Positions 5,452-18,683 of a stretch of 64,000 nucleotides of DNA are shown here, in pieces. The DNA is from Streptomyces antibioticus (GTDB lineage: Bacteria; Actinomycetota; Actinomycetes; Streptomycetales; Streptomycetaceae), in contig NZ_KQ948425.1 of the NCBI RefSeq assembly GCF_001514065.1, positions 438,519 to 502,518 on the forward strand, in the 5' to 3' direction. The position numbers were made by a program, and so were the translations under genes. Below the pieces are notes generated by a model. It was not told the DNA's origin. It saw only the letters and a program-made list of their open reading frames with translations, and searched no databases. Positions within the stretch are counted from its first letter, which is position 1; every line of letters starts with the position of its first letter.

Positions 5452-6972
5452 TCAGCTCTGGCGGGAGTGGACCGGGCTGTTGGCGACTTCCTCCGGGCAG
5501 CGGCGGTGCGAGGCCTCGGCGCCGCGATCACGCAGCCAGTCGGCCACGGCCAGCGCCAGTGAGGCGGTCATGCCGACGAGGGCCAACCCGAGGGCGGCCA
5601 GCAGGGCCGTGCGGTAGTGGTCGGTGTCGCCCAGCACGAGGTAGTAGATGCCCGGCAGCGCCGCCGTTCCCACGGCCGCGCCCAGGCGCTGGCCGGTCTG
5701 AAGGGCGCCGCCCGCCGCCCCGGCCATACGGACGGGGACCTCGCGCAGGGTCATGGTGATGTTCGGGGAGACCACGAAGCCTCCGCCGATGCCCGCGGCG
5801 AAGAGGGCCGGCGCGGCCGCCCAGCGCGCCGCGTCGTCCGGCACGAGCCACAGCAGCACCGCGGCGGTGCCCAGACCGATGATGACCGCGCTCAGCCCGC
5901 ACACGGTGAGCAGGCGGCCGAAGCGGTCCACGAGGCGGCCGGCCGTCACCGCGGCGGCGGCCGAGCCCAGCGCGAAGGGAGTGACCGCCAGCCCGGACTG
6001 CAACGGGGTGAAGTCCAGCCCCCGCTGGAAGAAGAGGGCGAAGACGAGCCACACCCCGCTGAAGCCGATGAAGTAGAGCGTGCCGACGCCCGCGCCCACG
6101 GCGTAGCCGCGCACGGTGGAGAACAGGCGCGGGTCCAGGAGGGGTTGGGCGCCGCGGGCGACGAGGCGGAACTGACGCCGGACGAAGAGCGCGAGGAGCA
6201 CCCCGCCCACGGGGAAGAGCCACCACAGGCGTCCGAGGCCGCCGGCCTCCGCCTGCACCAGGGGGTACATGACCGCCAGGACTCCCAGGCCGAGCAGGAC
6301 GATGCCGGGGACGTCCACCGATCCCCGTCCGGAGCGTTCGACGCGTGGCAGCAGACGCAGACCGAGCAGGACGGCGAGGACGCCGATCGGGACGTTGACG
6401 AAGAAGATCCACCGCCAGCCGTCGGCTGAGCCGGCGAGAGCGAGGATGGCTCCGCCGGTCAGCGGCCCGGCGGCGGAGGAGATGCCCACGGTGGCGCCGA
6501 AGAAGCCGAAGGCGCGGCCCCGTTCGGCGCCGCGGAACATCTGCTGGATGAGAGCGGAGTTCTGCGGGGCCATGAAGCCGGCGGCCAGGCCCTGGACCAG
6601 TCGGGCCGCCACCAGGAGGGTGATGTCGGGGGCCGCGCCGCACGCGGCGCTGAAGAGGGTGAACGCACTCAGGGCCAGCAGGAAGATGCGGCGTCGATCG
6701 AGCGCGTCACCGAGCCGTCCGGCGGTGACCAGGGCCAGGGCGAACGCCAGCGCGTAGCCGGAGACCACCCACTGCACCTGGGTCGGTGTGGTGCCCAGTC
6801 CACGTTGGATGGTGGGCAGGGCCACCGCCACGATCGTCACGTCGAGCAGGCTCATGAATCCGGCGACGAGGGTCACCCACAGCGCACGCCACCGGTTCGG
6901 GTCCGGGGTGTGTCCGGCCTCGCCACCGCCTGCGTGCGGTCCGTCCGCACCCGAGTCCGACACCGCTGCCAC
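5452..6972 (-). CDS. MFS transporter, DHA2 (EmrB/QacA) drug efflux type
   Basis: 506 residues with the 14-TM DHA2 architecture. Visible motifs are LLDVTIVAVALPTIQRGL in TM1 (motif D1), GRLGDALDRRRIFL after TM2 (motif A) and the motif C region AGPLTGGAIL in TM5. The expected function is proton-driven export of hydrophobic compounds. GTG at 6972 has AAGGGGA just upstream. It lies 94 bases downstream of the HxlR regulator on the same strand, which may control it. It converges on the SDR at 5428 with a 23-base gap. Confidence 0.9.
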   Translation of the reverse strand: MAAVSDSGADGPHAGGGEAGHTPDPNRWRALWVTLVAGFMSLLDVTIVAVALPTIQRGLGTTPTQVQWVVSGYALAFALALVTAGRLGDALDRRRIFLLALSAFTLFSAACGAAPDITLLVAARLVQGLAAGFMAPQNSALIQQMFRGAERGRAFGFFGATVGISSAAGPLTGGAILALAGSADGWRWIFFVNVPIGVLAVLLGLRLLPRVERSGRGSVDVPGIVLLGLGVLAVMYPLVQAEAGGLGRLWWLFPVGGVLLALFVRRQFRLVARGAQPLLDPRLFSTVRGYAVGAGVGTLYFIGFSGVWLVFALFFQRGLDFTPLQSGLAVTPFALGSAAAAVTAGRLVDRFGRLLTVCGLSAVIIGLGTAAVLLWLVPDDAARWAAAPALFAAGIGGGFVVSPNITMTLREVPVRMAGAAGGALQTGQRLGAAVGTAALPGIYYLVLGDTDHYRTALLAALGLALVGMTASLALAVADWLRDRGAEASHRRCPEEVANSPVHSRQS

Positions 6973-7066
6973 AGGTCCCCTTCCGCCGCTCCACGATCAG
7001 GGAACGGGTTCCCGCCCGCGGCCACACGCACACCCGGGCGACCGCCGCTCGGCTGTAGATCAGCCG

Positions 7067-7447
7067 TCAGCCGTCGAAGCGGTGGCGGGCGGCCTCGATG
7101 TGGCCGAAGTAGCGGTGCGTCCAGTCGCACATTCCGTCGACGGTGGCGCGCAGTCCCTGGCCCGGCTCGGTGAGGGTGTATTCGACACGCGGCGGGACCG
7201 TGGGGTGCACGTCTCTCTCGACCAGGCCGTTGCGCTCCAGCATGCGCAGGTTCTGGGTGAGCATCTTGTGGCTGATGCCCTCGATCTCGTTGCGCAGTTC
7301 ACTGAAGCGCAAGGTGCGGTCACCGAGGGTCTCGATGATCAGGAACGCCCACTTGTTGGCGACGTCGGAGAAGATCTCCCGCGCCAACGAGTCCGCGCGC
7401 CTGAGATCTGCTTCCTCGTTCGGGCCGTTGATCTGTTTGGTCACCAT
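7067..7447 (-). CDS. HxlR-family winged-helix regulator
   Basis: 126 residues with the HxlR signature. FSDVANKWAFLIIETLGDRTLRFSELRNEIEGISHKMLTQNLRML is the helix-turn-helix, followed by the wing ERNGLVERDVHPTVPPRVEYTLTEPG. The N-terminus lacks the Cys found in redox- or aldehyde-sensing members. It is transcribed divergently from the Rid-like gene at 7568 and upstream of the MFS gene at 6972, so either or both could be targets. The 120-bp intergenic region should hold its operator, but I see no strong palindrome there. Confidence 0.9.
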   Translation of the reverse strand: MVTKQINGPNEEADLRRADSLAREIFSDVANKWAFLIIETLGDRTLRFSELRNEIEGISHKMLTQNLRMLERNGLVERDVHPTVPPRVEYTLTEPGQGLRATVDGMCDWTHRYFGHIEAARHRFDG

Positions 7448-7567
7448 GAGGTTCCCCAGTCACTGAAAAGTGCGTTCTTCCATGTCAGCGTTCACTCTCC
7501 TACGGTTCCTGAGTAACCACAAGAGAGCAAAGGCGTCCACAGGCGCTCAGGACAGGAGACCGGCACC

Positions 7568-7975
7568 ATGGCCATCAACCTCATCAACCCGACCGGATTG
7601 CCCAAGATCGATGTCTACCGTCAGGTGTCCGTCGCCACGGGGTCGAAGCTGGTCTTCATCGCCGGCCAGGTCGCCTGGGACGCCGAGGGGATCACGGTCG
7701 GCGAAGGCGACCTCGCCGCGCAGGTCGAGCAGTGCTACCTCAACATCGGCACCGCCCTGGCCGAGGCCGGCGGCTCCTTCGACGACGTGGCGAAACTGAC
7801 CGTCCACGTCGTCGACTGGACCCCCGACAAGATGCCCTCGCTCCTGGAGGGCATCTCCCGGGCGTCCGCGAAGCTGGGCATCACCCCGGTCCCGCCGGCC
7901 ACGCTGCTGGGTGTTGCGGCCCTGGACGTCCCCGACCATCTGGTGGAGGTGGAGGCCACCGCGGTCCTCGACTGA
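7568..7975 (+). CDS. RidA/YjgF/UK114-family protein, non-archetypal
   Basis: 135 residues, full family length, with the core strands (KLVFIAGQVAWDAEG, QVEQCYLNIGTALAEAGGSFDDVAKLTVHVVDW). Archetypal RidA deaminates reactive enamine/imine intermediates and needs an Arg in a PARxxV context near the C-terminus. Here the aligned segment reads VPPATLLGVAALDV, with Thr at that position, so the classic deaminase activity is doubtful. A good ribosome-binding site (GACAGGAGA) lies upstream of ATG. It is divergent from the HxlR gene, a common pairing. Its substrate is unknown. Confidence 0.9.
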   Translation: MAINLINPTGLPKIDVYRQVSVATGSKLVFIAGQVAWDAEGITVGEGDLAAQVEQCYLNIGTALAEAGGSFDDVAKLTVHVVDWTPDKMPSLLEGISRASAKLGITPVPPATLLGVAALDVPDHLVEVEATAVLD

Positions 7976-8008: not shown

Positions 8009-9469
8009 TCACGCCGGTTCCTCGACCGTGTGCGAGTCGGTCAGGGTGAGGGCGCCGGCTGTCGCGATCAGGCCGACGAGCACCGCCAGGACGCCGTAGA
8101 TGATCCGCTCGCCGTGGAAGAAGGACTGCACGAGGTCGCTGCTCCAGGTGCCCGCGGGCAGCTGGGTGGTGACCAGTGCCGCGATCAGGGTGCCGACGAC
8201 GGCGGTGCCGACGCTGGTGCCGACTTCCTGGGCAGTGTCGTTGAGCGCCGCGGCGATCGAGGTGCGGTTGTCCGGCATCGCGTCGACCAGGGCGATGGCG
8301 CAGATCGTCATGACGGTGCGCAGTCCGATGGTCATCACGACCATGGCGGCGGCGATCGCGGCGTACCCGTGGTCGACGCCCCAGGCGAGCCCGGCGAGCG
8401 CACCGGCGAGGCAGGCCGCGCCGACCAGGCAGGCGACGCGGTGGCCGAACTTCTTGGCGAGCCCTTCCGACAGGGGGGTGGCGACGATCATCGTCACGAT
8501 GATCGGCAGGTTCGCCAGGCCGGCCCGTACGGGGCTCCATCCGTAGGCGTACTGGAAATGGAGGATGAGCCCGAACATCACGCCGGCCATCGCGATGGAC
8601 GTCCCGATCTGGGCGATGGCGGCGCCGCGGACGGTCCCGCCGGCGAAGACGGTGAGGTCCAGCATGGGTGCCGCGCTGCGGCGCTCGTGCCGTATGAACC
8701 CGAGGCCCGCGGCCACGGCTCCGACGATGGACGCGAGCGTGGTCGCGGAGAGCCAGCCGTGCTCGACGCCGCTGGTCAGCGCGTAGCAGGCCAGGCCGAT
8801 GGTGAGGACGCTCAGGGCGGCGCCCGGCAGGTCGAGGCGGTCGTTCGTCAGGTCCTCGGGGCGGTCGGCGGCGACGCCGAGCCGCACTCCGATGCCGGCG
8901 ATCAGCGCGATCGGCGCGTTGATCAGCAGGAGCCACTGCCAGCTCACGTGGGCGAGCGCCGTACCGCCGAGCAGCGGGCCGAGCACGAACCCGGACATGC
9001 CGACGACGATCATCAGGGTCATCGCGCGCATCCGCAGTGCCTGCTCGTCGAACAGGCGGAAGACGAGCGAGTTGGTGATGGGTGCCATGGCGGCGGCGGC
9101 GATGCCGAGTCCGGCGCGCAGGGCTATGAGCTGCCCGGCGGAGTCGACGGCGATGACGCACAGGCTCAGCAGGCCGAACACGGCGAGGCCGATCAGCAGC
9201 ACGCGTCGGCGTCCGACGCGGTCGGCCAGGGAGCCGGCCGTCAGCAGGAGACCGCCGAACGTGAGCGAGTAGGCGCCGGTGACCCACTGCAGGGCGGTGG
9301 TGCCGCTGCCGAGGTCGCGGCCGATGGTCGGCAACGCGATCGAGAGCAGGGTGTTGTCGACCATCTCGACGAAGAAGGCCAGACAGAGCGCGGCCAGCGG
9401 AATCCAGGCAGCGCGCAGGGATGAGTAGGTGCGGGTCGAAGCTGACTCGGTGGTGGTGGTCGCGGTCAT
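8009..9469 (-). CDS. MFS transporter, DHA2 type, divergent from TetR
   Basis: 486 residues with 14 predicted TM segments: TM1 has LAFFVEMVDNTLLSIALPTI, motif A is GSLADRVGRRRVLLIG and motif C is FVLGPLLGGTAL. ATG at 9469 is preferred because AGGAGG lies 7 bases upstream. Longer starts would run through the operator array and into the TetR gene. The promoter region is shared with the TetR gene at 9587 and carries an array of palindromes, so it is almost certainly repressed by that TetR. It converges with the Rid gene. Confidence 0.9.
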   Translation of the reverse strand: MTATTTTESASTRTYSSLRAAWIPLAALCLAFFVEMVDNTLLSIALPTIGRDLGSGTTALQWVTGAYSLTFGGLLLTAGSLADRVGRRRVLLIGLAVFGLLSLCVIAVDSAGQLIALRAGLGIAAAAMAPITNSLVFRLFDEQALRMRAMTLMIVVGMSGFVLGPLLGGTALAHVSWQWLLLINAPIALIAGIGVRLGVAADRPEDLTNDRLDLPGAALSVLTIGLACYALTSGVEHGWLSATTLASIVGAVAAGLGFIRHERRSAAPMLDLTVFAGGTVRGAAIAQIGTSIAMAGVMFGLILHFQYAYGWSPVRAGLANLPIIVTMIVATPLSEGLAKKFGHRVACLVGAACLAGALAGLAWGVDHGYAAIAAAMVVMTIGLRTVMTICAIALVDAMPDNRTSIAAALNDTAQEVGTSVGTAVVGTLIAALVTTQLPAGTWSSDLVQSFFHGERIIYGVLAVLVGLIATAGALTLTDSHTVEEPA

Positions 9470-9498
9470 GGCCGGCCTCCTGTCGGGAGTGGAAAGCG

Positions 9499-9570
9499 TG
9501 GAACGGGATTCGATTAACGAACGATGTTCGATACTGGAACGCCGTTCGAGAGTAGAACGTCGTTCGATGA
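9499..9570. promoter_or_regulatory. Operator array: four palindromes at an 18-bp period
   Basis: Between the divergent MFS and TetR starts the sequence GAAC-N3-GTTC occurs at 9519-9529, 9537-9547 and 9555-9565. A degenerate first copy (GAAC-GGG-ATTC) lies at 9501-9511. The spacing is exactly 18 bp each time, and most copies are followed by GA, giving an extended core GAACGNNGTTCGA. The symmetric core and position are those of a TetR-family operator. Repetition of the site suggests cooperative binding of several dimers. Confidence 0.85.
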
Positions 9571-12648
<3,078 letters not shown>

Positions 12649-17418: not shown

Positions 17419-18683
17419 CGTGTCTCCTCCCTCGGCAGGTTGAGGACCACCGCGGACTGGAAGCCGCCGAATCCGCTGCCCACGGAGAGAACGCTGTTCA
17501 GCTTTCGCTCACGGGCGATGCGCGGGACGTAGTCCAGATCGCATTCGGGGTCCGGCGTCTCGTAGTTCGCGGTGGGCGGGACGACCTGGTGGGTCAGGGA
17601 CAGCGCACAGGCGACGAGTTCGATCGCCCCGATCGCGCCGAGCGAGTGGCCCACCATGGACTTGATGGAGCTCATGGGCGTGTCGTAGGCGTGCTCGCCC
17701 AGGGCCCTTTTGACCGCGGCCGTCTCGTGCCGGTCGTTCTGGAGGGTGCCGGAGCCGTGCGCGTTGACGTAGTCGATCGCGGTGCGGTCCAGCCGGGCCT
17801 GGTCCAGGGCGTCCTCGATGGCCCGGGCCATCTCCAGTCCCGCACTGGTCAGACCGGTCATGTGGTAGGCGTTGCCGTACGTGGCGTAGCCGCCGATCTC
17901 GCAGTACACCCGCGCGCCGCGGGCCCGGGCGTGTTCCAGCTCCTCCAGGACGAGGACCGCGCCGCCCTCCCCCATGACGAACCCGTTGCGGTCCGCGTCG
18001 AAGGGGCGCGAGGCGTGGGCGGGGTCGTCGTTGTTCGGGGACGTCGCCTTGATCGCGTCGAAGCAGGCCATGGTGATCGGTGAGATCGGCGAGTCCGACG
18101 CCCCGGTTATGCAGATGTCGGCCCGGCCCTCCTCGATCGTGTGGAAGGCGTATCCGACCGCGTCCAGGCCCGAGGTGCAGCCGGTGGAGACCGTCTGCAC
18201 CGGGCCGCGGGCCTCGAACCGCTCGGCCACCGTCGAGGCGAGGGTGCTCGGCGAGAACGCCCGGTGCAGATGCGGGTCGGCCTGCCGGTGGTCCACGTCC
18301 CAGCGCTTGCCCCGCTCGCTGACCAGCACGTAGTCGTGCTCCAGTCGGGTGGTGCCGCCGACCGCGGTGCCCAGGGAGACCGCCACGCGCCACGGGTTCT
18401 CCACGGCGAGGTCGAGACCGGAGTCCCGTACCGCCTCCTCCCCCGCCGCCAGGGCGAACTGAATGTACCGGTCGCAGCGGGCGATCTGCTCCGGGTCCAG
18501 GCCGTGGGCCGCCGGGTCGAAGTCGCACTCGGCGGCGATCTGCGAGCGCAGCCCGGCCGGGTCGAAGAAGGTGATGCCCCGCGTCGCCGTGCGCCCGTGG
18601 GACAGCAGGTCCCAGAAGGCCGGGACCCCGATGCCCTGCGGGGCGACGACGCCCAGGCCGGTGACCGCCACGCGCCTGGTCAT
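17415..18683 (-). CDS. Ketosynthase KS-alpha of type II PKS (WhiE ORFIII-like)
   Basis: 422 residues. The active-site Cys169 lies in [12 protein letters not shown], with the two catalytic His in [11 protein letters not shown] and [14 protein letters not shown]. The conserved Lys-region SSIKSMVGH is also present. It catalyses decarboxylative malonyl condensations with the CLF. ATG at 18683 overlaps the upstream cupin stop by 4 bases. Gene order and lengths match the whiE spore-pigment locus rather than antibiotic clusters. Confidence 0.96.

Follow-up and report, generated by a model that had tools for sequence, protein, structure and literature searches.

Most members of the TetR family are reported to bind a single operator of ~15 bp (PMC9210681), and operators of the single-dimer class (TetR, SimR, DesT) are given as 15–17 bp long, compared with 22–32 bp for those that hold a pair of dimers (PMC4150764). 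Two dimers bind the 28-bp operator of QacR, and two CprB dimers sit on opposite sides of a 22-bp operator, where they are described as cooperative without touching each other (PMC4150764); two dimers on one operator have also been described for MAB_4384 (PMC5895659). Larger assemblies are reported as well, including the cooperative homo-octamer that EthR of Mycobacterium tuberculosis forms on an operator of 55 bp built from direct and inverted repeats (PMC9210681) and the spreading on DNA in vitro of SlmA, a TetR-family protein (PMC6657595). Closest in operator sequence to the locus studied here is the SCO7222/SCO7223 system of Streptomyces coelicolor, in which three perfect TGGAACGNCGTTCCA repeats lie in a 146-bp intergenic region (Ahn et al. 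2012, PMC3511530). SCO7222 was reported to form three complexes in EMSA, to protect three regions from DNase I and to repress a SCO7223 reporter, and the same source describes three EMSA shifts for ActR, with three weaker palindromes in the protected region (PMC3511530). Because a three-site operator has been published for SCO7222, rows of several such operators are a known arrangement.

In the stretch of Streptomyces antibioticus DNA analysed here (64,000 nucleotides; hereafter, the window), four putative operators lie between a TetR-family regulator gene and an MFS efflux pump gene, together with a predicted promoter of the pump gene:

8009-9469, minus strand: MFS efflux pump, DHA2-type, Tet(43)-like (PF07690; start codon 9469)
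9501-9511, no strand: putative operator A, GAACGGGATTC, degenerate with one mismatch; equivalents in relatives
9519-9529, no strand: putative operator B, GAACGATGTTC, perfect GAACN3GTTC
9537-9547, no strand: putative operator C, GAACGCCGTTC, perfect; predicted to overlie the MFS transcription start
9549-9554, minus strand: predicted MFS -10, TACTCT, directly abutting operator D; conserved across loci
9555-9565, no strand: putative operator D, GAACGTCGTTC, perfect; between the -35 and -10 of the predicted MFS promoter (18-bp spacer)
9573-9578, minus strand: predicted MFS -35, TTGCGT; geometry conserved across loci
9599-10318, plus strand: TetR-family regulator (PF00440 TetR_N, 45.1 bits; PF02909 TetR_C_1, 34.2 bits; both above cut-off)

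The tetR and MFS genes diverge from start codons 129 bp apart (9469 and 9599), and the sites lie in between. The initial annotation had identified the two genes as TetR and MFS, in agreement with the domains found (PF00440, PF02909 and PF07690), and had described palindromes at 9519, 9537 and 9555 with a degenerate fourth at 9501, all of which were located: GAAC-N3-GTTC units start at 9501, 9519, 9537 and 9555, with a pitch of 18 bp throughout. Against the NCBIfam model of Tet(43), the pump scored 776.9 bits over profile positions 1–481 of 484, below the curated cut-off of 999, and by this profile match it is a close, below-cut-off homologue of the Tet(43) tetracycline efflux protein. Among the matches listed from the open-licence literature, no studies of a Tet(43) regulator were found. 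A catalase-peroxidase-like gene (PF00141, 10456-12648, plus strand) lies directly downstream of tetR on the same strand, and the region from 5452 to 7975 holds a second MFS exporter (5452-6972, minus strand), an HxlR regulator (7067-7447, minus strand) and a RidA-like gene (7568-7975, plus strand).

By sequence, the solved structure closest to the regulator was 2hxo (123 bits), which we take to be SCO7222. This assignment is supported by another locus, L102, whose regulator is 63% identical to the 2hxo chain over 216 residues and which carries SCO7222-like sites, namely two GAACN3GTTC palindromes with TGG/CCA edges at a 27-bp pitch. The window sites do not match the extended SCO7222 operator TGGAACGNCGTTCCA (sites A and C start with TGG, and none of the four ends with CCA), so by its operators the window regulator is a sister type rather than an orthologue of SCO7222.

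Perfect GAACN3GTTC occurs only once elsewhere in the window, at 17489, and the chance expectation from 100 shuffles was a mean of 0.56 per 64 kb, with a maximum of 3. A three-site pattern with an 18-bp pitch and up to three mismatches matched the window at the array only, in two overlapping frames, and gave no match in the 100 shuffles, while across the 10.1-Mb genome to which the window belongs the exact GAACN3GTTC pair at 18-bp pitch was confined to the array. The shuffles, together with a reversed control pattern that was found in 0 of 199 Streptomyces genomes, exclude a chance origin of the array. No direct repeats were reported at 9300-9800 by a repeat finder that requires exact 9-base seeds, indicating that the array units have the palindrome in common and little else. 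Base frequencies across 54 loci (defined below) extended the site to the 17-bp consensus ATCGAACNNNGTTCGAT, with outer bases ATC/GAT, a length that would be compatible with one dimer per site. The alternate dyad GTTC-N7-GAAC was rejected as the true operator because site D stays a perfect GAACN3GTTC even at neighbour distances of 19–25 bp, which abolish the N7 spacing.

A search of genome contigs with the regulator protein sequence, which was blind to operator DNA, yielded 55 loci (L003–L057) from Streptomyces, Actinacidiphila, Actinomadura, Phycicoccus, Pedococcus, Nocardioides, Marmoricola, Aeromicrobium, Nakamurella and a few other genera. All except L057 had a divergent MFS gene (54/55), with an identity of 75–98% to the window's pump (L003–L056). 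L056, in which the regulator matched from residue 118 only, and L057, a short remote match lacking an MFS hit, were excluded before the counts were made, leaving a set of 54 loci made up of the window and L003–L055. Eight orthologues found through their sites (L061, L068, L073, L075, L077, L078, L081 and L094) were included in the tree and kept outside the 54-locus counts. Two to five copies of GAACN3GTTC were present in all 53 orthologous gene pairs (L003–L055), and the multi-site operator that the initial annotation had proposed for this divergent TetR/MFS pair is supported by this conservation: no relative among the 53 kept the gene pair while lacking the repeats, each having at least two sites. 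With mismatched copies included, the 54 loci had two copies in 8, three in 35, four in 8 and five in 3, and at least three sites in 46. The fourth, degenerate site of the window also has counterparts, as the equivalent of operator A is perfect in L005 and has one mismatch in L003, L004, L006 and L030. In L056 (Streptomyces sp. NRRL B-3428), the MFS gene is present and there is no array, the locus's only perfect site being far away at 502; MFS coding DNA lies just upstream of the regulator match (~2300-2500), and the array and the DNA-binding domain are apparently both missing, through a natural deletion or an assembly fault.

Site D has a conserved position relative to promoter-like hexamers on the minus strand. 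In all 54 loci, a TAnnnT sequence begins at the first base past site D; on the far side of D, 6–7 bp off, 53 of them have a TTG-type -35 (51 by script, with L022 and L048 added by eye from aligned rows), giving a spacer of 17–18 bp; L034 has TTACAT in its place. A generic scan for sigma-70 promoters and terminators reported no promoter in the tetR/MFS intergenic region because the -35 is of the TTGC type rather than TTGACA, and it is conservation across loci that suggests an MFS promoter here. The conserved fit of site D between the two hexamers is the strongest sign suggesting that D blocks the pump promoter. Transcription of the MFS gene would be expected to start ~7 bp past the predicted -10, inside operator C. 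For tetR, the intergenic region offered no well-supported promoter candidate, only a weak overlapping -10 recognized by eye.

The 18-bp spacing described initially for the window is kept across relatives in one part of the array and varies in another. Next to the promoter, the D–C spacing was 25 bp in 26 loci, 18 bp in 17 (the window and 16 others, including its nearest relatives L003–L006 and L030), 20 bp in 7, 24 bp in 2, and 19 and 21 bp in one each. Away from the promoter, the C–B spacing was 18 bp in all 46 loci with at least three sites and the spacings beyond C–B were 18 bp in 13 of 14 cases (the remaining one was 17 bp), making 59 of 60. At 10.5 bp per turn, the D–C spacings of the main clades place site D at angles of ~137 degrees (25 bp), ~257 degrees (18 bp) and ~326 degrees (20 bp) from site C, and the rarer spacings place it at ~103 degrees (24 bp), ~291 degrees (19 bp) and ~0 degrees (21 bp). 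On the regulator tree, counted over the 54 loci, C–B changed 0 times, compared with at least 7 changes in D–C, at least 8 in copy number and at least 28 in how far the outermost site lies from the MFS start. Within the three-site group of 35 loci, this last distance, with a mean of 22 bp, changed at least 16 times; at that rate we estimate that the 7-bp C–B linker would have changed ~5 times, whereas none was observed. Because C–B stayed unchanged on the tree while its linker sequence took 20 distinct forms among 46 loci and the flanking distance kept changing, constraint seems to act on the 18-bp spacing away from the promoter and far less on the spacing beside it. Common descent of duplicated units accounts for some of the sameness of the pitch, not for its persistence.

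Sites were chained by a rule that searched 14–29 bp upstream, took as D the perfect site beside a -10-like hexamer, counted one-mismatch sites, allowed a two-mismatch site at 18 bp only and broke ties towards 18 bp. The sole two-mismatch site accepted, in L031, yields two of the 13 further 18-bp spacings. A rule-free listing of sites with at most one mismatch contained 112 spacings, 73 of them at 18 bp, 25 at 25 bp, 7 at 20 bp, 2 at 24 bp and one each at 17, 19, 21, 36 and 91 bp; the spacing of 36 bp corresponds to two units in L031, and that of 91 bp to a misplaced start in L046, for which site D was set by hand. The bias of the chain rule towards 18 bp is small, and the rule-free listing agrees with it. 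No description of this 18-bp regularity was found among the matches listed from the open-licence literature, where searches for other multi-operator TetR arrays likewise led no further than the systems cited here.

Paired GAACN3GTTC sites are not limited to orthologues of the window's gene pair. Among the 199 Streptomyces genomes, 26 (counting that of the window) had the exact 18-bp pair, compared with none for the reversed control. Seven of the 25 best-matching loci taken from this search (L058–L082) were orthologues of the window's gene pair and 18 were not, and 17 of the latter had a TetR from a different subfamily, with no more than 44% identity to that of the window, along short stretches. 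When gaps of 0–28 bp were allowed, 79 of 150 genomes had a pair, compared with a control hit in 2 of 150. From the best matches, 52 paired-site loci were taken (8 are orthologues of the window's pair, and L062 and L097 are the same place); a TetR-like ORF was present in the stretch in 47 of the 52, with 39 scoring at least 33 bits and 8 matching weakly (12–20 bits), and a TetR hit was absent in 5. Recurrent pitches among the matches listed were 15, 18, 24–28 and 38 bp. Taken across these genomes, GAACN3GTTC seems to be a widespread core of TetR operators in Streptomyces, and each regulator subfamily tends towards a pitch of its own. The initial annotation had stated that most TetR systems have one or two operators. 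Most family members are indeed reported to bind one ~15-bp site (PMC9210681), but the implied rarity is overstated, given the published three-site operator of SCO7222 (PMC3511530) and the paired sites near many Streptomyces TetR genes.

Several of these loci form recognizable classes. An array larger than that of the window is at L071 (1501-1641), where six perfect GAACN3GTTC copies (pitches 18, 21, 22, 47 and 22 bp) accompany a different TetR/MFS pair. A 15-bp-pitch class with the form GAACN3GTTCACGTGAACN3GTTC was present near 1501-1526 in L086, L087, L089, L091, L103, L105 and L109, and the adjoining TetRs have the recognition helix GALYRYF or GALYRHF. Palindromes 24–35 bp apart and separated mostly by CGTATCGT-like DNA were found near 1501-1546 in L085, L092, L093, L096, L098, L100, L101 and L108, next to ORFs with weak TetR similarity and a G-T-I/L/V-Y-R-H-F-P helix. 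The window's own genome has one further GAACN3GTTC pair, 36 bp apart, which belongs to the CGTATCGT class (contig C8:175823-175869).

Given the sites observed, their conservation, the promoter-like geometry and the gene context, the array is very probably the operator region of the divergently transcribed TetR repressor and efflux pump, and from these features we infer TetR binding, repression, a ligand and cooperativity in the following form. A single TetR dimer would be expected on each GAACN3GTTC palindrome (ATCGAACNNNGTTCGAT), the arrangement of the TetR/SimR/DesT class. An occupied site D would exclude RNA polymerase sterically and shut the pump promoter, because D lies between its predicted -35 and -10 hexamers. 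Site C would cover the predicted transcription start and sites B and A the early transcribed leader, where B and A could add occupancy and tetR autorepression, with cooperative binding possible. A ligand, likely a drug-like substrate of the pump, would free the sites from TetR and switch the pump on.

The constancy of the pitch could be a matter of close packing without cooperation, with 18 bp as the tightest spacing that suits 17-bp operators and extra sites raising occupancy and the number of dimers to be shed. We regard this possibility as nearly evenly balanced: ATCGAACNNNGTTCGAT falls one base under the pitch, at 17 bp, and single-dimer TetR-family operators are reported to span 15–17 bp (PMC4150764), but packing leaves unexplained why longer upstream spacings are absent (59/60 at 18 bp) and why, among the matches listed, pitches of 15, 24–28 and 38 bp are found near other TetRs. 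Alternatively, dimers on 18-bp neighbours may aid each other in a fixed geometry that sharpens the switch, with D placed separately as the promoter block. A cooperative stack of this kind is a real possibility, though on balance we stop short of calling it probable. In its favour are the 18-bp C–B spacing in 46/46 loci and the further spacings in 13/14, kept across 20 linkers; the 0 changes in C–B on the tree against at least 8 in copy number, 7 in proximal spacing and 28 in MFS-start distance; the 18-bp pitch beside TetRs of other subfamilies; and the precedent of EthR, a cooperative homo-octamer on 55 bp (PMC9210681). Loci with two sites only (8/54) and the variable promoter-proximal spacing speak against it, and since tandem duplication of an 18-bp unit passes on the pitch, recent copies are not independent evidence for it. 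Cooperativity alone would also be no proof of contact, as CprB dimers are described as cooperating without touching (PMC4150764). With these points in view, a fixed dimer-dimer geometry among 18-bp neighbours is plausible from the pattern of spacings.

The initial annotation had gone further and proposed a helical TetR filament through all the sites, continuous over the whole divergent promoter. SlmA spreading on DNA in vitro (PMC6657595) offers a parallel for such a structure, and the window shares a D–C spacing of 18 bp with 16 other loci, L003–L006 and L030 among them. The six D–C spacings across the 54 loci, however, put D at differing angles from C, on different faces of the DNA, and this disfavours the filament, as do the 8 loci with two sites only; we consider it very unlikely. 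The sites could also in principle belong to a global regulator other than the adjacent TetR, for instance as LexA-type SOS boxes, and the half-site CGAAC/GTTCG does resemble the Gram-positive SOS box, which has the form CGAAC-N4-GTTCG. All four window sites have N3, GAACN4GTTC is absent from the 64-kb window, and LexA SOS boxes were rejected on this basis; moreover, the sites go with tetR/MFS pairs and with SCO7222, and the window's genome has the 18-bp pair in a single place, making control by LexA or another global regulator exceedingly improbable.

Possible cooperation among 18-bp neighbours is the best reason for studying this system. The 54 related promoters form a natural series, with two to five sites, one spacing that ranges from 18 to 25 bp and a second fixed at 18 bp, in which side-by-side cooperation of TetR dimers and the effect of operator number on pump induction can be tested. 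The paired sites also suggest candidate operators for many Streptomyces TetR genes that have yet to be studied. A broader conjecture, which we hold to be rather doubtful, is that an 18-bp operator quantum is common to several actinobacterial TetR subfamilies; whole units would then be gained and lost through a conserved side-to-side contact between dimers, copy number would set the steepness of pump induction, and the promoter-blocking site would be placed independently.

Among the systems described, QacR, CprB and MAB_4384 share with the proposal made here the binding of more than one dimer per operator, but theirs are pairs of dimers on a single operator rather than rows of separate palindromes. 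EthR also resembles it in placing several TetR-family dimers on one operator (PMC9210681), while the palindromes of the window are discrete and evenly spaced; the constant 18-bp upstream spacing is compatible with an EthR-type cooperative oligomer rather than proof of one. The TetR/tetA system has, like the window, a divergent repressor and efflux pump, with palindromic operators over both promoters; its two operators are reported to lie 11 bp apart (PMC9210681), in contrast to four near-abutting 18-bp units in the window. In ActR/ActA of Streptomyces coelicolor, too, a TetR regulator gene diverges from that of an MFS exporter, and the palindromes there share CCACCGTT (PMC3511530) where those of the window share GAACN3GTTC. 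In SCO7222, the likeness extends to a TetR regulator, a divergent target and a short intergenic region with at least three GAACN3GTTC sites, but the target is a monooxygenase instead of a pump and the outer bases are TGG...CCA (PMC3511530), compared with ATC/GAT in the window-type consensus. The pitch differs as well, at 27 bp in the SCO7222-like locus L102 and 18 bp in the window. The footprints of SCO7222 are described as three discrete regions (PMC3511530).
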